A stretch of DNA of 20,572 nt from a virus, in IMG/VR virus record IMGVR_UViG_3300027906_000197, positions 1 to 20,572 of that record; one strand, written 5' to 3'. Below the pieces are notes generated by a model. It made no database searches. It saw only the letters and a list, made by a program, of their open reading frames with translations, and was not told where the DNA came from. Every line of letters begins with the position of its first letter. Positions within the stretch are counted from its first letter, which is position 1. A program made the position numbers and the translations under genes. Shown piece after piece: positions 6,652 through 19,499 of this stretch.

Positions 6652-7959
6652 TTATATCCTATTAGCTTCTTTTGCTAGTGTATCAGATAACCCCTTCATC
6701 CTACGTTTAACTCCACGCAAGGTTGTTGTTCTGTATTCGTTGTTATCTAAAAATTCTTCGGATGCCTCCTGAAACTTACCCTCATTTATTAAGTCTATGG
6801 TTATAGGACTTCCTGCTATACCACCCCTAAACCAACTCTGTGCTATTTCTATTTGTAACTCTTGACTCAATCTATCAAAGTTTTTAATTTTACTTTTTAT
6901 CTTAGGTATTCTTTTTGCTAAGTCTTTACGTAGTAAAGCATCTGCCTCTTTTGCAGTAATAGTTTGACCTTCTTTTACATCAGCCCCATAGTGTCCATGT
7001 CCTATAGTGTAAAACTCTTCACCAAACTTTTTCTCTGCTACGTAATCAATACCCTCTTCTGTCTTTAGTCTAGTTATGATAGCATCATTTAAAGGTATCT
7101 TTGGTTTGTGTGGAGGTAATGCGTGGACTAATGGGTAGGCTGTTTTAATAGGTTCAAGCTCTTTCATACTTGTAGCGTTCTTTACTACTTCTGCATCATC
7201 ATCTCTGTATATGGGTATCTTTATATCTTTACCTGCCACTATTCTATTTTTATCTTCTATCTTATTAAGATACATTAGTTCTTGAACAGTAGTGCCTGTT
7301 GCATCAGCTATCTCACCTAAAGTATCACCTGATTGTATTGTGTAGGCTGCAGTATTTGTAGGAGAACCAATAAGTATAGGTTGACTTTCCATAGTAGGAG
7401 AACCCAAGCCCTTACCAACAACTTGGTTTCTGTCAATAGTAGGTACTTCATCAACGCCACCTATCTGTGGTGTGGTGTCTATGTTGGGTTGTGTTCTTGG
7501 CTGACTAGGACCACCAGTTAGCTTTGACATATCTATAAAGTCATAACCACCAGTGTTAATACCACTTTCAGTTACAGGTACTGGATCTGGTATAACAAAC
7601 ATAGGATCACTATTGTATGCATCTAATAGAAACATATCATCATCACGTGGTTCTGGTTTATTCATACCAAAGAACTGCGCTCCGTAGTATTTCATTCCAT
7701 CATATATCTTTTGGTCTAGGTTTCTATCGTCTGGTTTTTCTCCAAACGTTTTAATCTTTTTATCTACCTTTGCTTGAGAAGGTAGTTTTATTTCATCATA
7801 GCCAACTGCAGCCTGACTACTAGTATCATAAGCACTAGATGAATAGTCAGGTACACCTAACCCTTTTCTCAGCCCCTGCTGCTTACTAGTCTGTGTTCCT
7901 GCTGCTCGACTGAAGGCCAGTTGCTGTGCTGCAAACGTTTGTCTAGGATCATATGTCAT
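6652..7959 (-). CDS. LysM plus GH24 lysozyme-like peptidoglycan hydrolase (435 aa)
   Basis: The chosen start is ATG 7959 (MTYDPRQTFAAQQ), 16 bases after the upstream stop. A longer TTG reading from 8085 overlaps the previous gene. Residues about 1-200 are polar, Pro/Asp/Gln-rich and look like a virion tether. Residues about 205-250 form a LysM domain (AYTIQSGDTLGEIADATGTT, ending AGKDIKIPI), which binds peptidoglycan. Residues about 290-430 resemble T4-type lysozyme: TEEG (Glu302, matching T4 Glu11) and FYTIGHGHYG (Thr318, matching T4 Thr26), then T-x-x-E-A-D-x-LL. The residue matching the catalytic Asp20 of T4 appears to be Lys. The protein could be the endolysin, or a virion-borne hydrolase helping DNA entry. 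The structural-looking N-terminus favours the latter, and the adjacent holin-like gene the former. Confidence 0.75.
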   Translation of the reverse strand: MTYDPRQTFAAQQLAFSRAAGTQTSKQQGLRKGLGVPDYSSSAYDTSSQAAVGYDEIKLPSQAKVDKKIKTFGEKPDDRNLDQKIYDGMKYYGAQFFGMNKPEPRDDDMFLLDAYNSDPMFVIPDPVPVTESGINTGGYDFIDMSKLTGGPSQPRTQPNIDTTPQIGGVDEVPTIDRNQVVGKGLGSPTMESQPILIGSPTNTAAYTIQSGDTLGEIADATGTTVQELMYLNKIEDKNRIVAGKDIKIPIYRDDDAEVVKNATSMKELEPIKTAYPLVHALPPHKPKIPLNDAIITRLKTEEGIDYVAEKKFGEEFYTIGHGHYGADVKEGQTITAKEADALLRKDLAKRIPKIKSKIKNFDRLSQELQIEIAQSWFRGGIAGSPITIDLINEGKFQEASEEFLDNNEYRTTTLRGVKRRMKGLSDTLAKEANRI

Positions 7960-7975
7960 TTTTATACCTGTATTA

Positions 7976-9763
7976 TTAGAAGATAGAATCCAAGGCTCTT
8001 TCGGTGAGCTTACCAACGAAACCCCCAAGTCCTTTTTCGAAAGCACTAGAGCCACCATCAGTAGCACTGATTTTAGCAGTAGCAATGTTGTTATCCCTTT
8101 GTTTTGCGTTTTCAGAGGACTTCCATGCCCACCCTAGTATGTCTCTTTCTCTTTGTAGTACAGCATCATAGGCTGCTCTTGTCAGATTATTAGCTGCCAT
8201 AGCTGCATCACGGTTAGCTTGGTTAGCAGCGGCATTATCTGCAGTAGTTATACTCTGCGCCCACTTAGCATTTGCTTGTGCTATTACAAGATGATTCTGT
8301 GCATTAAACTGGTCACGTGCATTAGTCTGTGCAGTGTTAAATCTACCAATAGCATTTGCTTCACCTGCATTAAAACGTTCCATTGCATTGGTTTGCTCTG
8401 AGTTAAACTGTGAAACCTGAGTAGCCATAGTAGAAAAGAATTGATCAGTCTGGTTCTGTGATGTAGCGTTGAACTGTTTGGCTGCATTGTCTGCTGATTG
8501 ATCAGACATAATAGAAGCTATTTGAGCCTGTGCTTTGAACATAGTGGTTTGTTGCTCATTAGATAGGTTAGTCATATCCATTGCCAAGAATGAGTCAGCA
8601 TTTTGTTTAGCTGCTTGCTGCCTGTTGTTTAAGTTAGCCATGTCCATCTGTGACATAGTAGCAGCATCAGCCATGACTTTGGCTTGTTGGTTTGATAAGT
8701 TAGTTAAGTCTACAGTCTGAGCCATCCTAGCATTTTCTAGTGCTACTTGTTGCTCTGCACTAAAGTTAATGTTAGCTATTTCTGATACACGTGCTGCATT
8801 CTTAACTTTAGTTTGAAAGCCTTGATCAAACTCTTGTCCTAAAAATCTTGCACGTTGTTCTGCTTTAGCCATAGCCATTTGTTGTTTATTAGATGCATCC
8901 ATCTGAGCGATGGGCAATGCCGATTCCATAGCAGCCTGTACAACTGCCATACCTGCCATAGATGATGCTCCTAATCCACGTGCTTGCATCTGTGCATTTG
9001 CATTACGCATAGCACCTGCTGCCCATGATGGTGTGTTACCACCTTGGAAGTCTTGCATCAAATCATCTAGTTCAGTCTTTACAGATGCAGCTTGTTCTTT
9101 TGCTAGGGTAGTATCTACCTGTGCCTGATCTACAGTAGTACCACTAATAGTTTGATCTGCTGTCATCTGCATAGGAGTAGGGGCTTGCACTTGTTGTGCC
9201 TGTCCTTGTTGAGCAGCTTGTAATCCTAGTGATGATGCTTGTGTTGGGTCTACCTGTGCAGCTTGCATCTGTGCATTAGGAGCAACATTTCCTTGTGCTG
9301 CTTGTTGTTGTGTTCCTGCTACTCTAACTGCTGTCTGAGTTGATCCTGCTTGCATTTGATTAGCAGGTGTTGTAGGTGGTGCAACTGTAGGTACATTTGC
9401 TGCTGCATTTGTATTTGTAACCTGTGTTGCTACAGGAGCCTGTCCAGTATTTACTGCTATTTGTGTAGGTGTTCCACCAGTATCCGCAATAGTAGCTGCT
9501 TTACTAATCATAGTAGTAGGATCAGTCTGTATCTGTCCTGTGGATTGCTGGCCTGTAAGTACACCAGTAGCAGCTTCTACAGGTTTTTGTTCTACTAGTT
9601 TTTTGGCTGCTAAAGTAAGCTGACCCATCATAGCTGCTGCAGAAGGACTAGCTGCAAGAAACTGGTTTATAGATTTTTGATCCATTGCACCTTTGTAGCC
9701 CAAGGATGGGAGTATTTTCTTTTGCATTACTTCAGGCTTAAACCCTACAAATTTCTTAGCCAT
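7976..9763 (-). CDS. Ala/Gln/Asn-rich repeat-containing virion protein (595 aa)
   Basis: The N-terminus (MAKKFVGFKPEVMQKKILPS and SINQFLAASPSAAAMMGQLT) is like virion proteins of marine phages, probably a short docking domain. Residues about 70-200 are low-complexity Gln/Ala/Thr/Pro. Residues about 330-417 hold repeats built on TNLSNQQ, ANLNNRQQ and TNLSNEQQ. Residues about 429-491 hold a second array with Phe-Asn (FNATSQNQTDQFF, FNSEQTNAMERFN, FNTAQTNARDQFN). Both arrays should form long helices or coiled coils. There is no enzyme motif. It lies at the place of the T7 internal virion genes 14-15, and I infer an internal core or other structural role. The ribosome site is AGGGAAAT. A fibre-like rod is the main alternative. 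Confidence 0.6.
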   Translation of the reverse strand: MAKKFVGFKPEVMQKKILPSLGYKGAMDQKSINQFLAASPSAAAMMGQLTLAAKKLVEQKPVEAATGVLTGQQSTGQIQTDPTTMISKAATIADTGGTPTQIAVNTGQAPVATQVTNTNAAANVPTVAPPTTPANQMQAGSTQTAVRVAGTQQQAAQGNVAPNAQMQAAQVDPTQASSLGLQAAQQGQAQQVQAPTPMQMTADQTISGTTVDQAQVDTTLAKEQAASVKTELDDLMQDFQGGNTPSWAAGAMRNANAQMQARGLGASSMAGMAVVQAAMESALPIAQMDASNKQQMAMAKAEQRARFLGQEFDQGFQTKVKNAARVSEIANINFSAEQQVALENARMAQTVDLTNLSNQQAKVMADAATMSQMDMANLNNRQQAAKQNADSFLAMDMTNLSNEQQTTMFKAQAQIASIMSDQSADNAAKQFNATSQNQTDQFFSTMATQVSQFNSEQTNAMERFNAGEANAIGRFNTAQTNARDQFNAQNHLVIAQANAKWAQSITTADNAAANQANRDAAMAANNLTRAAYDAVLQRERDILGWAWKSSENAKQRDNNIATAKISATDGGSSAFEKGLGGFVGKLTERALDSIF

Positions 9764-12035: not shown

Positions 12036-13913
12036 TTATTGTCTATCGTTTGTTTTGTATTCTAACACAGCAGTGTCTAATGTAAAGCTTGGATTTGTTG
12101 TATTGTCTTGTATTCTTACAGAAACAGTCTTTCCTGAACCTATAATATTTACTGGATAAATTTTATCTATAAGTGCGCCAAATTTGTGACCAAAAGCGGA
12201 ACCAAATTGTGCGCCTTGGTTAAAGAAAGCCACAGACCCAGAGCTAGTTAAAATATTTATAGTGTCTGGTTGTATAATACTGTTTCTTGTATTTGATTCA
12301 AAGTCAAACTTTAAGTTAAAGTCTAAGTCTATAGTTCCAAATGGGTCAATAAACCAAACAGCTTTATAAAAAGTCTTCCTTATTTGTGGATCGTTTATAG
12401 GCATGAATGCTGATTGAAATACAGCGTTTATGTTTGAACTGTCAAAGGTAGATCCACTTTCACCTTTGTATATATACCCATCACTGTTTGCAAATGCTAA
12501 AGTTTCTACTGAACCTTCATATACACTGTCTGCAACATAGGCTTTTATGCCTTTACAAGTTGACCACTCAATTCCTTGAGAGCCTTGAGTTGTAACCTTT
12601 GTAGCTATTAGACCTTCAGAGGAAGCCTCTCTCCTACTACTAAGATATGAGAATATTCTGTACTGAGATTTACCTCTAAGTATGTGAGAGCAAAATGTAG
12701 ACTCTCCACCAACAAAATCTAGAAAAGTTTCTTTTATTTTATCGGATGCAACATCTAGAGCAAAGTCACCTATGCGATCAGTAGCACCTAGCTGCCTAAT
12801 ACCATCGGGAGATAAGTACATAATGTCTCCACCAACTTCCTGTATAGTATCTTTGTTAACACATCCTATCTTTTCTGTAATGGACTGAAGCTGGAAGTCT
12901 GCTGCTGTATTACCTACTAATCTACTGATGGTGTCACTTGTAAAAATAACTAGCTGCTCACGAAAGACTGCCATGCCTGTAATGTCGTGAGATAAACTTA
13001 TACTACCTGCACCATCTGCTACAGAAAAGTTATCTACCGTAAAAGGTGCTGTAAAAAATACTGTATTACCTTTTGAATAAAAAGCAGTACGTTTAAATAT
13101 AACTACGTTGTCTGCACCCTCTACATCTGTATTTATTTTAGAACTAGATGCTGATAGGAAAGAAGTGTAGTTACCGTTTTGATTGTATATGGCAGGGTAA
13201 CTTTTACCATCTACAAATACTACCTTGTCATCTCCATCAAAGTTAAACTCAGCATGTTTTACTTTAAGACCGTTTGTATTGTTACTTACTGCTACAGTTG
13301 TACTTCCGTTAGAGGCCACCATAGGTGTCCACGTAGTTCCTGTACCAACATAGTAAGCAGTTTTACCTACATCTGAATTTGTAAAAGCAAAAGTAGTTAG
13401 ACGTGTTAGTACCCAGTTAGTAGATCCGTTACCTGCTGTTGTAACTTTATAAACACCATTCTGTGTTGAGTCAGTTTGTGCATTTACTTTTATCTTACTG
13501 TCTACAGCGTATGCGTTGCCGCTTATAGCAAAAGCAGCTTGTGTTCCTGAGTTTGTAAGAGTACCTGCACCACTATTAAATGTAGCAGTTAAGTTAGCGT
13601 TGGTTGTTGCTACAGTAGTATGCGATTGATCTAGAAAAACACTGGAAACAGCAGCACTATTTACTTTACGTGCAGCTAGTATACGTGTAGATGAAATAAC
13701 TTTCAATCCTAAAATTTCAGACTCGCCTGGAACTGTTGTAGAACTGAACTTTGTGTATCCTAATATCTTACTATAACCACCTTCTTTGTTGACCTCAAAG
13801 TTACTTAACTGAAAAGCAGAACCTACAGCATTAGTACCTTGCTGAAGCAAGCTCATATTTGAGATTAGACCACCCTTAAACTCAACAGGGAAGGTTTGCC
13901 ATTGTGTTGCCAT
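12036..13913 (-). CDS. Tail tubular protein B, nozzle (625 aa, T7 gp12-like)
   Basis: The N-terminus (WQTFPVEFKGGLISNMSLLQ, then NFEVNKEGGYSKILGYTKFS) matches the conserved opening of podoviral tail nozzle proteins, where the chain crosses the nozzle platform (family pattern E-x-G-G-Y-x-K-x-x-G). The rest is predicted beta-rich, with phrases such as HDITGMAVFREQLVIFTSD and GGDIMYLSPDGIRQLGATD that fit a beta-propeller-like nozzle. The length is somewhat below T7 gp12 (794 aa) but within the range of marine podoviruses. The product would form the hexameric tip through which DNA leaves. Its ATG overlaps the stop of tail tubular protein A (TAATG), so the two are made together. Confidence 0.85.
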   Translation of the reverse strand: MATQWQTFPVEFKGGLISNMSLLQQGTNAVGSAFQLSNFEVNKEGGYSKILGYTKFSSTTVPGESEILGLKVISSTRILAARKVNSAAVSSVFLDQSHTTVATTNANLTATFNSGAGTLTNSGTQAAFAISGNAYAVDSKIKVNAQTDSTQNGVYKVTTAGNGSTNWVLTRLTTFAFTNSDVGKTAYYVGTGTTWTPMVASNGSTTVAVSNNTNGLKVKHAEFNFDGDDKVVFVDGKSYPAIYNQNGNYTSFLSASSSKINTDVEGADNVVIFKRTAFYSKGNTVFFTAPFTVDNFSVADGAGSISLSHDITGMAVFREQLVIFTSDTISRLVGNTAADFQLQSITEKIGCVNKDTIQEVGGDIMYLSPDGIRQLGATDRIGDFALDVASDKIKETFLDFVGGESTFCSHILRGKSQYRIFSYLSSRREASSEGLIATKVTTQGSQGIEWSTCKGIKAYVADSVYEGSVETLAFANSDGYIYKGESGSTFDSSNINAVFQSAFMPINDPQIRKTFYKAVWFIDPFGTIDLDFNLKFDFESNTRNSIIQPDTINILTSSGSVAFFNQGAQFGSAFGHKFGALIDKIYPVNIIGSGKTVSVRIQDNTTNPSFTLDTAVLEYKTNDRQ

Positions 13914-14602
13914 TAGTAAGCTACTCTTCTGTCTCTTATTGCGTCAGTACGATTTATGTGTATACTTCTCAGATATTTTATACCGCTTTCAAAATCTTGT
14001 TTTGCCATCTGTGCCATCTGTGTATCAGATCTAAACTGATATATTAAACTCATAGCACCTGCTACAATGATGTGTCTATATGACTCTGGTAATACAGGAA
14101 CATCATCATGTAATAGCATTTCGTAGCCAAGCCTGTAATATTCATAAACTAACTCGTAGGCTTTGTCTGGTTCTGGTACTAGTATGATTTCACGGCTAGG
14201 TGTGCGTACTATATGTCTTGGCACACCTCTGTTACTTGTATCAGTGTCGTATTCTTGGTCTACATATTTTTCTAGGTATTCTTCATAGCTTAACTTTTTT
14301 AGGTGTTCAGTGCCATTTTCTAGTGTTGCACTTCTTTTTATCCTAAACGTTTCCATGTCTATTGTTTTTGCATCGTCTGGAAAAGGATAACGACTTGTAC
14401 CTGCAGTTAAAGTGAGAGTCTCCTCTACATGGTTCCAAGGCCATTCAAACTCTTCTTGATTGATGTGTCTTATTGCAGTATTTACTGAGTCTTTAACAAA
14501 ACTATAGTAACCTGTTGTAATAGAAAAGTCAGTAGTCGTTAATGCTACTTCATTTAATCTTCTGTTGCAGTCGTTTACTAACCCAAGGAAATCATATGCC
14601 AT
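13913..14602 (-). CDS. Tail tubular protein A, adaptor/gatekeeper (229 aa, T7 gp11-like)
   Basis: The sequence MAYDFLGLVNDCNRRLNEVA followed by VKDSVNTAIRHINQEEFEWP is the helical opening of podoviral tail tubular protein A. It is followed by a beta insertion (LTAGTSRYPFPDDAKTIDME) and the conserved later helices (YRHIIVAGAMSLIYQFRSDT). The length is close to T7 gp11 (196 aa). The protein should form a dodecameric ring joining portal and nozzle. It is directly followed by tail tubular protein B, the invariant order in T7-like tails, which supports both calls. The ribosome site is AGGGAGAA, and one base separates the ATG from the stop of the upstream 105-aa gene. Confidence 0.85.
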   Translation of the reverse strand: MAYDFLGLVNDCNRRLNEVALTTTDFSITTGYYSFVKDSVNTAIRHINQEEFEWPWNHVEETLTLTAGTSRYPFPDDAKTIDMETFRIKRSATLENGTEHLKKLSYEEYLEKYVDQEYDTDTSNRGVPRHIVRTPSREIILVPEPDKAYELVYEYYRLGYEMLLHDDVPVLPESYRHIIVAGAMSLIYQFRSDTQMAQMAKQDFESGIKYLRSIHINRTDAIRDRRVAY

Positions 14603-14603
14603 T

Positions 14604-14921
14604 CTATTTCTCCCTGACTGTTAAGAAAATTGTTCTGTTATACGTTAGGCTTGCTGCAGTAGTTATCTGACAAGTTACAGTATACTTAGTGCCAACTACA
14701 CCTGCTGTAAATCTAACAGTAGCAACAGTAGTTGTATTTGTAGGTTGTACTAAAGTTAATCCGTTAGATGCGTCACCAGAGTAAACGTCTGAGTCTGACA
14801 TTGTTTCTCCGTTAACTTTCCAAACAACGGTTGCAATAGTATCAGTACCTAAAAAACGTGACCAATCTACACTGTAATCTACCACTTCATCTGGGTCATG
14901 GTTAGGCCATTTGTACGCCAT
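14604..14921 (-). CDS. Small Ig-like virion protein, fibre-tail adaptor type (105 aa)
   Basis: The opening KWPNHDPDEVVDYSVDWSRF followed by LGTDTIATVVWKVNG matches a widespread small phage protein pattern (K-x-P-D-x-x-x-D-Y-x-x-D-W-x-x-x-L-x-x-D-T-I). The protein is predicted all-beta, one Ig-like domain ending in a strand (NRTIFLTVREK). Members are commonly annotated as fibre-tail adaptor or virion structural proteins, and I recall this from memory only. It is placed immediately before tail tubular protein A. AAGGAAGT precedes the ATG. The function is probably that of a small adaptor or decoration in the tail. Confidence 0.6.
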   Translation of the reverse strand: MAYKWPNHDPDEVVDYSVDWSRFLGTDTIATVVWKVNGETMSDSDVYSGDASNGLTLVQPTNTTTVATVRFTAGVVGTKYTVTCQITTAASLTYNRTIFLTVREK

Positions 14922-15596: not shown

Positions 15597-15905
15597 CTAT
15601 GTGTCTTTTGGATCTGTAGGTAACGTTTTAAAAGGATGAGCTATGTAGTCTCTATTTTTACAATGATACTTTTCATTGTCGCTACCTGTTGTGGGGTCTT
15701 TATTTTCTTTAGTAACTTCAAAAGGGTAAGGTTTTCTAGGCCATGTAACATCACTTGCATCAGCACTGTCAGGAATTGCATTAACATAACCACGATAAGC
15801 AGTTACTTCAGCAGTCTCTGTAAGTAGACCTTGTGCTATCGCTGCATCCAATGCTCGTATAAGTTCGGATTTGTAATGTTTGGTTGCCTGTTGTAAAGCT
15901 AACAT
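15597..15905 (-). CDS. Tail-assembly chaperone-like small protein (102 aa)
   Basis: Residues 1-45 are helical (HYKSELIRALDAAIAQGLLT). They are followed by YRGYVNAIPDSADASDVTWP and RKPYPFEV. The pattern of an N-terminal helix, then Y-R-x-x-(V/L)-x-x-I-x-(D/P), then V-x-WP-x-x-P resembles the small phage tail assembly chaperone domain (Phage_tail_APC type). Such proteins usually sit next to a fibre gene and help it fold or assemble. Here it follows the Ser/Thr-repeat and glycosyltransferase-like genes, and its ATG lies directly after the stop of the latter. The C-terminus is charged (KENKDPTTGSDNEKY) without clear homology. The resemblance is at motif level only. Confidence 0.45.
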   Translation of the reverse strand: MLALQQATKHYKSELIRALDAAIAQGLLTETAEVTAYRGYVNAIPDSADASDVTWPRKPYPFEVTKENKDPTTGSDNEKYHCKNRDYIAHPFKTLPTDPKDT

Positions 15906-16847
15906 TTACTTACCTACTCTATATGCTTCTTTATAAAAATCTCTTAACTGGACAATGTAATCTAGATAATCGTCTATCTTCTTTATCCAGTTTTTATCCA
16001 CCTGTGGATGTATAATACCAGACTTAGGGGATGCAAAAGTTTTGTTAGCCCATTCTACTGGATTTGGATTACTGAATAAATAATAGTTTACGTGTCCAAA
16101 AGATGTCGTGTCTCTATTTTGTAATAAGTCAATATGACCAACTTGTTTGTCTAATACTTGTGCTACTAATGCACTCTCAGAAATCATGGTGCTATATATA
16201 AAATCAGAGTTCTTGATTAATTCAAATAAATCAGCGTCTTCATCTGCAAAGTTTATACCGCCAAGATATTTATCTAACTCAATATATGCTTCATCCCAAG
16301 ATATAGGATGCTTTTTGAATACAACATTGTTACGTCCATGCTTACGTAGAATGTATTGTATCTTACCAACACAACAATGTTTCTTTATTTTATTACCACC
16401 GGGTAGTATTATTAATGCTTCAGCACCTGTAGAATCAGATTTATTTGTATAGTTATATTTGCTAAAAGTGTTTTCTGTTTCTATCTTATTCTTAATCCAA
16501 TCAATATGACCTACTGGTTTAGTTGCGTCGGCATAAGCATCGGACATTTGTCTTAGGCTTTGTTCAAACGCCAGAGGATGAAGCATAAAAAATCCTGCAA
16601 ACGTTGTATAGTTTATAGTATCAAAGTATAACTCTTCTACTGCTGTGCAATCATAAGCTAATTTTATTCCTTTGTAAGGGAATTTACTTTTTACATATCT
16701 TTCAACTTCAACTAGGTGTGACATTTTAGGATGCCATCCTATATTAGTTGTGCCTTGTTCAAACTCTTCTGTTGATTTACTAGCTCCATAAATACTTTGT
16801 GCAACCGCACTATCTAAGTTATCGCTAACGTTTGTATCTTTAGGCAT
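15906..16847 (-). CDS. Putative glycosyltransferase-like protein (313 aa)
   Basis: The chosen start is ATG 16847 (MPKDTNVSDN), overlapping the end of the repeat gene by 8 bases. The frame stays open back to 17108, but that extension is a Gln/Leu/Arg-rich shadow of the repeats. The C-terminal half shows a GT-B-like pattern: a strand and Gly loop (EALIILPGGNKI, about 143-154), VVFKKHPIS (175-183, compare the K-x-HP of polysaccharide and polyol-phosphate transferases), and NSDFIYSTMISESALVAQVL then DKQVGHID (213-240, compare the donor-site S-x-x-x-x-E-A-x-x-x-x-K-P-V region). Two cysteines (158-159) follow the first loop. The N-terminal half is not recognised. If correct, the substrate could be the adjacent Ser/Thr-rich protein or host surface sugar. 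The call rests on motif resemblance alone. Confidence 0.4.
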   Translation of the reverse strand: MPKDTNVSDNLDSAVAQSIYGASKSTEEFEQGTTNIGWHPKMSHLVEVERYVKSKFPYKGIKLAYDCTAVEELYFDTINYTTFAGFFMLHPLAFEQSLRQMSDAYADATKPVGHIDWIKNKIETENTFSKYNYTNKSDSTGAEALIILPGGNKIKKHCCVGKIQYILRKHGRNNVVFKKHPISWDEAYIELDKYLGGINFADEDADLFELIKNSDFIYSTMISESALVAQVLDKQVGHIDLLQNRDTTSFGHVNYYLFSNPNPVEWANKTFASPKSGIIHPQVDKNWIKKIDDYLDYIVQLRDFYKEAYRVGK

Positions 16848-17523
16848 AGAAGTTTGTTGTCCTTGATGTTGAGTTAGTTGTATTAAACGTTGTAGTGGTA
16901 CTTTTTGATGTGTTAAACGTAGTGGTTGTACTCTGAGTAGTATTGAACGTTGTCGTGGTACTCTTAGAAGTATTGAACGTTGTCGTTGTAGAATGTGACG
17001 TACCATACGTTGTGGTTGTAGAATGTGATGTGCCATACGTTGTAGTATAACTTGTTGTAGTAGTTGATGCTGCTGTTCTATTGACGTACCAGTAAGGGTA
17101 TCCATCATTTAAGTTAAAATAAAGTCCTTGCTTATAATAGGTATATCCTCCACCACTAATTGAGTTTGTACCATGTCCACCACCCATATTTCTGTAAGGA
17201 GTTGCGCCCCAGTATATATTAACCCCTGACCAAGGTGCGCTTATCCACCAATCATTTGCCCCTCCATATTGAGTAACTGTACTAGATGTACTATGTGATG
17301 TACTATGTGATGTGTTATACGATGTTGTGGTACTATGTGAAGTGTTGTAAGATGTTGTAGTTGAGTTACTAGTACTGTAAGTTGTCGTAGTAGAATTAGA
17401 AGTACTAAACGTAGTAGTGGTACTATTTGAAGTTGAATATGTAGTTGTAAATGTAGAAGAAGTACTAAACGTTGTATTGAACGTAGTAGTAAATTCTTTT
17501 ATACCATTTATAAACCAAGACAT
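16840..17523 (-). CDS. Ser/Thr-rich decapeptide-repeat virion protein (227 aa)
   Basis: Two arrays of a ten-residue unit, consensus S-T-T-T-T-(F/Y)-(N/S/G)-T-(S/T)-x, flank a central domain. Array 1 covers residues about 11-84 and array 2 about 154-221. The register is exact: in array 2 every tenth position is Phe or Tyr. The centre (about 85-153) is rich in Gly, Tyr and Trp (GGANDWWISAPWSGVNIYWG, GGGYTYYKQGLYFNLNDGYP). The arrays should form extended beta or rod structures and are rich in possible O-linked sites and N-x-S/T sequons. The gene is coupled by TAATG to the 658-aa fibre-like gene and overlaps the glycosyltransferase-like gene. It is likely a tail appendage. Similar Thr-rich repeats occur in marine phages as I recall, without known function. 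Confidence 0.65.
   Translation of the reverse strand: MSWFINGIKEFTTTFNTTFSTSSTFTTTYSTSNSTTTTFSTSNSTTTTYSTSNSTTTSYNTSHSTTTSYNTSHSTSHSTSSTVTQYGGANDWWISAPWSGVNIYWGATPYRNMGGGHGTNSISGGGYTYYKQGLYFNLNDGYPYWYVNRTAASTTTTSYTTTYGTSHSTTTTYGTSHSTTTTFNTSKSTTTTFNTTQSTTTTFNTSKSTTTTFNTTNSTSRTTNFYA
16861..17064 (-). repeat. 30-bp tandem repeat array 2 (decapeptide)
   Basis: Nearly seven 30-base units encode S-T-T-T-T-(F/Y)-(N/G)-T-(S/T)-x in the C-terminal part of the 227-aa protein. Lys, His, Gln or Asn fills the variable position. FNTS-K and FNTT-Q/N units alternate, which suggests growth by duplication of a 60-base pair of units. Confidence 0.8.
17272..17493 (-). repeat. 30-bp tandem repeat array 1 (decapeptide)
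   Basis: About seven units encode the same decapeptide with drift (YSTSNSTTTT, FSTSNSTTTT, YNTSHSTTTS), ending in a short TSHS duplication. It has the same register as array 2, so both arrays probably share one origin, with the Gly/Tyr/Trp-rich centre between them. Confidence 0.8.
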
Positions 17524-19499
17524 TAAGCAAAATCTCCAATGTAGTTCACTAATATGTTTGAACTATCTAACACATAATATGATAACACACTTATTTCGTT
17601 AGCGTTAGTAGCTTGAACAATGGCTGCACCGTTAACTGGTGTTTTACATTCTGCAGGTAGAGTAAAAGATCTACCGCCTGTACCATCCTGTACAAATACT
17701 ATGTTACCAAAACGTCCTGCATCTTTGTTTGAAAATGCAAAGGTTGTGTTAGCTGTCATGTTTACCTTAAAGTTATTAGCAGCAGCAAGATCTATGGTAA
17801 CTGTGCTGCCCCCACCTGCTACGGTATCTTGATCCTGCCGTAGGCCGCCTGTCATAGTACCACCTGCTAGGGGTAACTTTGCGTCTAACTGTGTCTGTAC
17901 TGCAGATGTAACACCATCTACATAGTTAAGTTCGGCTGTGGTTGCAGTCACACCGTCTAGTAAATTTAACTCAGCAGCCGTTGATGTAACTCCATCAAGA
18001 ATATTTAACTCAGCAGCCGTTGATGTGACACCATCTAAGATGTTCAATTCAGCAGCAGTTGAAGTTACAGTTGTACCATTAATAGATAATGCATCTGTTT
18101 CTAATGTTCCATCAATATCAGCATCACCTGATATGTCTAAAGTGGCAGCATCTAATTCACCTGTAATAGTGAAGTTTCTTACACCTGTATAATCTTTATT
18201 AGCATCAAGTATAACTGCTTTAGAAGCTATGGCAGTACCAACAGCAGTTGAACCTAAGTCAAGAGCATTAAGCTCACCTACGACTGCTGTAATGCCATCT
18301 AAGGTATTTAACTCGGCAGCGGTAGATGTAACACCATCAAGAATATTTAGTTCTGCAGCCGTAGCTGTTACCCCATCCATGATGTTTAGCTCTGCAGTAG
18401 TTGCAGTAACACCGTCTATGATATTTAGTTCTGCAGTAGTTGCAGTTACACCATCCAGTATGTTTAATTCTGTTGTAGTCGCAGTTACACCGTCTAATAG
18501 ATTTAGTTCTGCAGGAGTTGAGGTAATAGACTGACCGCCTACCTGTAACGTAGTAGCATTTATTTCACCTGATGATCCGTAAATTACACCCTTACTATTA
18601 ACTACAGTACCTGCGCTAGACCCGTCTACAAGATTTAATTCTGCTGCTGTTGATGTTACACCATCAAGAATATTTAGTTCTGCAGCAGTTGAGGTAACTC
18701 CATCTAGTATGTTAAGCTCTGCTGCTGTGGAAGTGACACCGTCAAGTATGTTAAGCTCTGCTGCTGTGGAAGTGACACTTGTTAGATCTGTAGGTGCAAT
18801 AGCAATATTACCAGTACCATCAAAACTTTGACCTGCTATTGTACGTGCGTTTGCTAATGCTGTTGCTGTGGACGCATTACCTTCTAAGGCAGCTACAATA
18901 GTACCTGCTGTACCACTAAATACTTCGCTTGAGTTTGTTGCATCTGGAATAAAAGTAAATTTACCTGTACTGTCATCAAAGCCAAAGAAACCTACTTTAG
19001 CTGCAGATCCGTTGTGCCAACGAAATTCTATGCCTCTGTCTTTGTTGTCATCAGATCCAGGCGCTGAGTCGCCACCTATTGTAAACACAGGGTCATCAAC
19101 AGTAGTGGTTGTACTGTTTACTGTAGTAGTTGTTCCGCTAACTGTTAGATTACCTGAGACAGTTAGGTTACCACTTGCATCTAAGAACACAGCCTTACTT
19201 GAAGGATATGTCATAAAGACGTCTTTAGTACCTGCAGCTAAGTCAACTGCATTGTTGGAATTAGAACTAGCTATAACTGTGGTACGAGTAAGAGTGTTAC
19301 CTGTATTCCACGTTCCTAGCCCTACTTCCCATTCATTTACACCTGAAGCGGTATGTGCAATGGCGTAGTAAGTCGTGTCACCATTGGACATGTAGTCTGT
19401 GAATGCTTTGAAGGTAGCCCCTGCACCTGCTAGACTTATTGCGCCTGTGCCTGTAGTAGTGGTTCCTTCTTTTACACGATCTTTTAATATTAATGCCAT
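17523..19499 (-). CDS. Fibre-like virion protein with 13-residue ELN(I/L)LDG repeats (658 aa)
   Basis: The N-terminal domain (LKDRVKEGTTTTGTGAISLA, then WEVGLGTWNTGNTLTRTTVI and KDVFMTYPSSKAVF, about residues 5-105) is a recurrent module of marine phage fibre proteins. Then comes GNLTVSGTTTTVNSTTTTVD, shared with the 672-aa fibre. From about 240 to 530 there are 15 copies of V-T-(S/A)-T-(A/T)-A-E-L-N-(I/L)-(L/M/I)-D-G, as blocks of 11 (with one 31-residue spacer) and 4. A shaft motif (DAKLPLAGGTMTGGL) leads to a C-terminal domain of about 100 residues (GNIVFVQDGTGGRSFTLPAE). A trimeric fibre or appendage role is inferred. It is unusual in lying between capsid and tail tube genes. AAAGG precedes the ATG. 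Confidence 0.75.
   Translation of the reverse strand: MALILKDRVKEGTTTTGTGAISLAGAGATFKAFTDYMSNGDTTYYAIAHTASGVNEWEVGLGTWNTGNTLTRTTVIASSNSNNAVDLAAGTKDVFMTYPSSKAVFLDASGNLTVSGNLTVSGTTTTVNSTTTTVDDPVFTIGGDSAPGSDDNKDRGIEFRWHNGSAAKVGFFGFDDSTGKFTFIPDATNSSEVFSGTAGTIVAALEGNASTATALANARTIAGQSFDGTGNIAIAPTDLTSVTSTAAELNILDGVTSTAAELNILDGVTSTAAELNILDGVTSTAAELNLVDGSSAGTVVNSKGVIYGSSGEINATTLQVGGQSITSTPAELNLLDGVTATTTELNILDGVTATTAELNIIDGVTATTAELNIMDGVTATAAELNILDGVTSTAAELNTLDGITAVVGELNALDLGSTAVGTAIASKAVILDANKDYTGVRNFTITGELDAATLDISGDADIDGTLETDALSINGTTVTSTAAELNILDGVTSTAAELNILDGVTSTAAELNLLDGVTATTAELNYVDGVTSAVQTQLDAKLPLAGGTMTGGLRQDQDTVAGGGSTVTIDLAAANNFKVNMTANTTFAFSNKDAGRFGNIVFVQDGTGGRSFTLPAECKTPVNGAAIVQATNANEISVLSYYVLDSSNILVNYIGDFA
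17913..18068 (-). repeat. 39-bp repeat block B, four units
   Basis: Four contiguous 39-base units (156 bases exactly) encode VTSTAAELNILDG and close variants in the 658-aa protein, the last being VTATTAELNYVDG. Many codons differ between units although the protein repeat is conserved, which indicates selection on the peptide. Confidence 0.85.
18255..18776 (-). repeat. 39-bp repeat block A, eleven units with one spacer
   Basis: Eleven 39-base units (429 bases) plus one 93-base spacer fill the 522 bases exactly. The first two units in the gene (18699-18776) are the most alike, with their last 32 bases identical, so they look like a recent duplication. Others have drifted to forms such as VTATTTELNILDG and ITAVVGELNALDL. 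Confidence 0.85.

Follow-up and report, generated by a model that had tools for sequence, protein, structure and literature searches.

What is the function of a gene pair in a phage tail operon in which a protein rich in Thr and Ser is followed, with a short overlap, by a glycosyltransferase-like protein? The original prediction for this locus was that the second product glycosylates the first, as a self-glycosylating virion module. From sequence comparisons and structure models, we propose a closely related answer: within the tail operon, the two genes probably constitute a cassette of enzyme and acceptor, which would O-glycosylate the appendage protein with a Kdo-type sugar. A description of this gene pair was not found in the open-access literature.

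The tail operon and the Ser/Thr-repeat protein

The window, that is the whole stretch of DNA analyzed, is a linear IMG/VR virus record of 20,572 nt whose minus strand carries a structural operon of podovirus-like type. As presented in Table 1, the fibre-like protein, the Ser/Thr protein, the enzyme and the fibre-assembly-like protein are encoded consecutively in this order, with adaptor genes on the same strand, so the location in a tail-gene operon, already proposed, was recovered. Part of the tail genes of the window shares approximately 67% DNA identity with the Roseobacter phage CRP-207, and the tail region of CRP-207 is without any Ser/Thr protein and enzyme pair. The C-terminal domain of the fibre-like protein is kept in relatives; its match between the window and the Caulobacter phages, at a probability of 24%, is only suggestive and was not relied on. 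This protein also contains 39-nt tandem repeats (window 17905-18778), corresponding to 13-aa AELN.LDGVT units whose number varies among relatives. Within the virion gene block, the protein encoded at 6652-8085, for which the mechanical ORF list gives a TTG start, resembles by eye a fusion of LysM and phage lysozyme.

The 227-aa protein was predicted to be mucin-like with two Thr/Ser decapeptide arrays, and its composition agrees with this description: 75 Thr and 40 Ser account for 115 of the 227 residues (51%). The 30-nt tandem repeats that encode the decapeptides were found independently by TRF (period 30), and the two arrays, at approximately residues 11-82 and 154-223, flank a 70-aa centre rich in aromatic residues and Gly. 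No other ORF of the seven comparison loci reached a window of 50% Ser and Thr. When the homologues of the Ser/Thr protein (L003, L004, L012-L015) were aligned, the ends and the arrays were kept and the 70-residue centre was variable, a pattern that would fit a modular appendage with a variable, receptor-binding tip. The protein is probably a fibre tip or a whisker, and its place in the operon suggests a virion protein. Its AlphaFold2 (AF2) model was uninformative (pLDDT 28.6).

The overlap between the two genes is exactly 8 nt (ATGCCTAA), as first described, and would be consistent with translational coupling of the two genes. The mechanical ORF list puts the start of the enzyme at 17108 (400 aa); we used 16847, since the conservation of the start and of the overlap supports this position. 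In four wider comparisons between IMG/VR relatives, dN/dS was 0.28-0.34 for the Ser/Thr protein and 0.12-0.16 for the enzyme, and in the close pair L013/L015 it was 0.50 and 0.24, respectively. Because of these values for both genes, the gene pair is not a product of chance.

Table 1. Position and supporting evidence of the features of the cassette and of its operon neighbours in the window.
Feature	Position	Strand	Evidence
Fibre-like protein, 658 aa, immediately upstream of the Ser/Thr gene	17523..19499	-	phrog_697 structural protein, E 7.5e-32
Ser/Thr-repeat appendage protein, proposed acceptor, 227 aa	16840..17523	-	ORF, translation, 30-nt repeats, dN/dS, homologues
Ser/Thr decapeptide array 1, T-T-T-T-[FY]-x-T-S-x-S	17278..17493	-	TRF period 30, alignment
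Central aromatic/Gly-rich domain, most variable part among relatives	17065..17277	-	alignment
Ser/Thr decapeptide array 2	16855..17064	-	TRF, alignment
8-nt overlap joining both genes	16840..16847	-	sequence; same overlap in 6/6 clade members examined
Glycosyltransferase-like enzyme, 313 aa, phrog_26179 family	15906..16847	-	profile, AF2 and Foldseek, dN/dS
Asp66, candidate catalytic base, N-terminal domain	16650..16652	-	invariant 100/100
Lys130-Tyr131	16455..16460	-	invariant 100/100
Gly150-x-Asn152 loop, at the place of QXXXD in known beta-Kdo enzymes	16392..16400	-	G150 100/100, N152 99/100
KxHP motif, Lys178-Lys-His180-Pro181, CMP-phosphate-binding type	16305..16316	-	K, H, P invariant 100/100
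S/T-rich phosphate loop ending Ser223-Glu224	16176..16193	-	S223 95%, E224 97%
Tail-fibre-assembly-like protein, 102 aa, directly downstream of the enzyme	15597..15905	-	phrog_105 tail fiber assembly E 4e-4, Caudo_TAP E 0.04
Podophage fibre-tail adaptor (Gp77 family), same operon	14604..14921	-	PF23148 66.8 bits, cut-off 27
Tail adaptor protein, same operon	13913..14602	-	SU10_adaptor 71.8 bits; phrog_10775 tail protein

Fold and conserved residues of the enzyme

Comparison of the window enzyme with Pfam, NCBIfam and the PDB sequences gave no useful match. It matched phrog_26179 (E 3.5e-20, residues 43-307 on profile positions 34-295 of 302); this family and phrog_30602, to which no function had previously been assigned, include the window protein and homologues from Caulobacter and Vibrio phages. 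Using the homologue of the Caulobacter phage Cr30 (23% identity) as a step for an iterated search, we found homologues in Caulobacter Autographiviridae (Lullwater, BL198, Quill), in KVP40-like Vibrio phages and in marine contigs, and profile comparisons link the Caulobacter, Vibrio and marine enzyme groups. Two subfamilies independently touch GT-B families, both below the curated cut-offs. The Quill, BL198 and Lullwater homologues matched Capsule_synth (PF05159, E 6e-4 to 6e-3) over the KxHP to SE region, the best relative reaching 19.8 bits for a gathering score of 20 bits and the window protein giving no match, and KVP40.0256 matched Glyco_transf_52 (PF07922, E 5e-4) at 19.8 bits, below the gathering score of 26.1 bits.

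The AF2 model of the enzyme, built from 12 homologues, had a pLDDT of 84.5 and a pTM of 0.83. When this model was compared to the PDB using Foldseek, the seven best matches were all structures of WbbB, KrkA or KpsC, which are GT-B-like Kdo transferases (E 1.4e-5 to 8e-3, TM 0.28-0.40), five of them with E <= 8e-5, and a non-transferase fold was not among the best matches. As the TM values are only 0.28-0.40, these matches suggest a shared fold class with the Kdo transferases and not a close kinship. Among viral structures, the own homologues of the enzyme came first, followed by a capsule-synthesis protein. The GT-B-like assignment had initially been made from motifs (LPGG, KKHP and SDFIYSTMISESA), which are present as quoted; it is strengthened by the best structural matches, by the sub-cut-off family matches of the relatives and by the invariance of the catalytic-type residues.

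We scored this invariance in 100 homologues, the most distant of which share 14-20% identity. D66, K130, Y131, G150, K178, H180 and P181 never change, and N152, S223, E224 and G277 are nearly invariant (Table 1). D66 appears as the natural candidate for the catalytic base. In KrkA, the CMP phosphate is bound through the (K/R)XHP motif, with an essential His (PMC12887879), and an HP motif is common to the CMP-sialic-acid transferases (PMC9587256, PMC10148158). Taken together, the fold and the invariant motifs predict that the protein is catalytically active.

WbbB (GT99), KpsC (GT107) and KrkA (GT140) are the best fold matches of the enzyme, at low TM values, and have in common with it the (K/R)XHP motif and the S-rich loop. 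These enzymes possess a QXXXD nucleophile/Gln motif, whereas the window enzyme is without it and without detectable sequence similarity to them; moreover, they belong to LPS or capsule loci, whereas in phages the enzyme gene is found in tail operons, linked to that of a Ser/Thr protein. QXXXD carries the covalent nucleophile in the characterized retaining beta-Kdo transferases. At this site, as placed by motif order, the phage family has the GxN loop, and a search for QXXXD in columns 140-165 of the 100 homologues found it in 2/100, which was taken as chance. With QXXXD and its nucleophilic Asp missing, membership of the canonical GT99, GT107 or GT140 families was rejected. The missing motif also counts against fixing the stereochemistry and against a Kdo donor. 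Overall, the enzyme looks like a CMP-ulosonic-acid transferase outside GT99, GT107 and GT140, as far as sequence and model indicate.

Linkage of the enzyme gene to Ser/Thr-repeat genes

Pairing of the two genes across phages was analyzed from both sides. From the Ser/Thr side, the decapeptide was turned into a degenerate DNA pattern, built without reference to the enzyme, and this pattern was searched over IMG/VR; it replaced a tblastn search with the Ser/Thr protein, which gave nothing, probably owing to low-complexity filtering. The matches listed comprised 119 stretches, two of them without a Ser/Thr ORF and 38 ending less than 1 kb past it. Among these listed matches, the enzyme was present in 78 of the 79 stretches long enough to judge, almost always as the next gene. 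In the whole records behind the short stretches the enzyme was found in most cases, and further cases are accounted for by contig ends. The apparent exceptions that were traced are mostly contigs that end within or just past the Ser/Thr gene, and L182 ends inside the enzyme gene. One exception is true: in L119, the Ser/Thr gene is followed by acetyltransferase-like and CoA-ligase-like genes and there is no enzyme. In L186 (1-7001), a close relative of L119, acetyltransferase-like and NDP-forming CoA-ligase-like genes lie between the Ser/Thr protein and the enzyme. Both genes are perhaps involved in another modification of the appendage.

From the enzyme side, loci were fetched by the enzyme sequence only (in one search, 80 of 297 matches were kept) and are partly redundant. 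We searched them for an ORF within 3 kb in which Ser and Thr make up at least 50% (strict criterion) or at least 40% (relaxed criterion) of a 60-residue window. With at least 1.5 kb of upstream sequence, 104 of 112 loci had a Ser/Thr gene by the strict criterion, compared to 0 of 113 background ORFs, located more than 4.5 kb away, that reached even 40%. After clustering at 50% identity, in a set that includes loci selected by the Ser/Thr repeat, a Ser/Thr gene was present in 17 of the 21 testable clusters by the strict criterion and in 20 by the relaxed one. The Ser/Thr gene precedes the enzyme in 198 loci and follows it in 2. The co-occurrence expected across related phages is thus near-obligate in both directions, and extends to unrelated phages.

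The pair was found in the isolates Cr30, Lullwater, BL198, Quill, KVP40, F86 and 6E35.1a, and in the Campylobacter fetus plasmid mp1. The Ser/Thr proteins of Lullwater and BL198 contain 39-40% Ser and Thr (relaxed cases, checked by eye). Cr30 encodes a 116-aa Thr/Tyr/Ser-rich protein, and the ORF that reached 40% in the locus count is a different one. In the Vibrio phage F86, an unannotated 202-codon frame with up to 62% Ser and Thr per 60 residues precedes the enzyme (L021:3855-4460). In mp1, the order observed by eye was fibre, two Ser/Thr/Tyr-rich proteins and enzyme; the cassette (L190:5978-7861) lies on an element that is phage-like but bears a plasmid annotation, and is closely followed by an IS605/TnpB element. 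The gene order is rearranged in L026 and the linkage of the two genes is kept. L278 and L281 are weak cases of pairing, and in DLP6 the enzyme lies beside an ordinary fibre, without a Ser/Thr-repeat neighbour. By eye, this DLP6 fibre next to the enzyme (L188:3-1652) and one Ser/Thr protein (L184:14154-18708) present Hint/intein-like ends. In KVP40-like phages, a second gene without assigned function (KVP40.0257, phrog_30897; L018:5581-6213) overlaps the end of the enzyme gene and is possibly a second transferase; L187 carries another unassigned gene at this position.

The pairing persists across podovirus-like and T4-like phages, across proteobacterial and campylobacterial hosts, and through rearrangement, the phages concerned being those of Caulobacter, Vibrio and Campylobacter and marine ones. 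In phages generally the enzyme is uncommon: no tblastn search detected it in more than 44 of 50,697 phage records. Two bacterial genome scans, with patterns derived from two alignments and a sensitivity limited by this pattern step, did not find a chromosomal relative of the enzyme, and a chromosomal LPS origin is therefore not supported. Overall, the linkage makes us fairly confident that the acceptor of the enzyme is the Ser/Thr appendage protein.

Sugar donor, alternative readings and significance

Judging from gene order, the Ser/Thr protein would be translated first, and re-initiation at the overlapping start codon would yield the enzyme beside it. Based on fold, motifs and linkage, the enzyme would then transfer a sugar from a CMP-sugar onto the Ser and Thr hydroxyls of the repeats in the host cytoplasm. 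The operon context suggests that this O-linking could take place before or during tail assembly, the modified appendage then joining the tail. The O-linked sugar would be acidic, most likely Kdo or a close relative, and a possible benefit would be a glycan coat altering adsorption, solubility or recognition.

Genes for the donor were found in some of the phages. Kdo-8-phosphate synthase (KdsA, TIGR01362) was detected in 5 of the 48 cassette records tested, four of them above the curated cut-off. In L335 and L336 the kdsA start lies 14 nt beyond the enzyme gene, and in L337 kdsA is the third gene downstream; in G020 and G007, KdsA is encoded in a separate cluster together with a KdsB-like cytidylyltransferase and GT29-like and GT-A-like genes. 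KdsB- and KdsD-like genes were found in G059, which brings the cassette records with a KdsB-like gene to three and those with a KdsD-like gene to one. A KdsA-like match was present in 14 of 50,697 phage records, several of the 14 being probably DAHP synthases. The enrichment of KdsA in cassette records was significant (Fisher p 7e-12, or 4e-8 when collapsed to 3 of approximately 20 lineages), a result to be read with caution, as the two collections and the methods differ. In a cyanophage with Kds genes, no cassette was found within the surrounding 15 kb. The KdsA frames of L335 (3919-5310) and L336 (4314-5720) run approximately 200 codons past the KdsA domain (464 and 469 aa), and this extra part had no Pfam match. 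GT29-like (sialyltransferase family) and GT-A-like genes lie beside kds genes (L335:5632-7139, L338:3473-4926, L327:3141-4614), with the GT29-like copy of L338 above the cut-off of PF00777, hinting at longer glycans on a Kdo-like base.

Kds genes are lacking in most cassette phages. These phages would depend on host CMP-Kdo as the donor, and the window phage seems to be among them, to judge from this fragment. CMP-Kdo is already made by common laboratory E. coli. The term self-glycosylating consequently holds for a phage-encoded enzyme with its own acceptor and does not extend to the activated sugar, which the window phage, within this fragment, would obtain from its host. In E. coli, CbMaf, the Maf protein of C. 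botulinum, adds Kdo or Neu5Ac to Ser and Thr of flagellin (PMC11339370), which is a precedent for Kdo O-linked to these residues. On balance, we slightly favor a Kdo-type sugar as the donor.

The sugar put on the appendage could also be a nonulosonic acid (Pse/Leg/Neu) or a common hexose, in which case the donor alone would differ from the explanation that we prefer. Such a donor would agree with the missing QXXXD, with the KxHP motif common to CMP-sialic-acid enzymes (PMC9587256), with the GT52 match and with the presence, in some records, of GT29-like genes close to kds genes. It appears rather unlikely, given that the top structural matches are all Kdo enzymes and that the cytidylyltransferase and synthase genes examined in phages belong to the Kdo type. 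Modification of the host surface (Kdo of the LPS inner core, O-antigen or capsule), which would mask the receptor against superinfection and make the Ser/Thr gene only a neighbour in the adsorption module, is improbable: the enzyme sits among tail genes, between fibre and assembly protein, in 20 of the 21 sequence clusters its partner is one specific type of protein, and the two bacterial scans gave no chromosomal relative, even if its nearest structures act on LPS or capsule, Capsule_synth and GT52 are LPS/capsule families and phage kds genes are also found apart from the cassette. We give little credit to a protein dedicated to the folding or assembly of the repetitive appendage, which has kept the GT-B-like fold and is inactive as a transferase. 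Its gene adjoins a fibre-assembly-like gene and no curated GT family was matched above threshold, but at 14-50% identity Asp66, KxHP, K-Y and SE change little or not at all, as catalysis predicts, and kdsA is next to or near the enzyme in three records. Glycosylation of phage DNA, a frequent role of phage glycosyltransferases (discussed in PMC12619734), is hardly credible for an enzyme with CMP-sugar-type motifs, a tail-operon position and a linkage to a Ser/Thr protein.

The preferred reading, O-glycosylation of the appendage by the enzyme, can be compared with other systems. According to the accounts of Freeman et al. (2023) given in PMC12619734 and PMC11256854, virion proteins are glycosylated in mycobacteriophages and the phages encode glycosyltransferases. 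In those accounts the capsid and tail-tube C termini are modified, whereas the likely acceptor here is a dedicated Ser/Thr-repeat appendage; the enzyme family differs and the phages are unrelated. Maf and FlmG (PMC11339370, PMC7591256) transfer CMP-ulosonic acids onto Ser and Thr of an extracellular filament, the same type of transfer as proposed here, but they are bacterial, with other enzymes and another acceptor, and the window enzyme had no match to a Maf domain in Pfam or NCBIfam.

Four points are new here: the enzyme family itself, a mucin-like acceptor dedicated to it, the wide occurrence of the pairing and the connection to Kdo genes. Near-obligate pairing in hundreds of contigs from unrelated phages suggests a widespread, unrecognized sugar-coating of phage tails. 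To our knowledge, few systems of virion protein glycosylation exist in phages, and we know of no earlier phage enzyme family that puts an LPS sugar on a viral protein, if our reading is true. More tentatively, many unrelated, mostly aquatic phages may encode a dedicated protein-O-Kdo(-like) transferase together with its own Ser/Thr-repeat acceptor, some with sugar biosynthesis, which would represent a new glycosyltransferase family and a mucin-like coat of the tail appendage. The cassette offers a sequence-based and taxonomically broad case, with a predicted enzyme, a predicted donor and an acceptor with approximately 100 potential sites. If true, this reading would give a function to phrog_26179, to phrog_30602 and to many Ser/Thr-repeat proteins annotated as hypothetical, and would explain some phage-encoded Kdo genes besides LPS modification. 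Many phage tails would then carry acidic glycans, which could influence adsorption and recognition.
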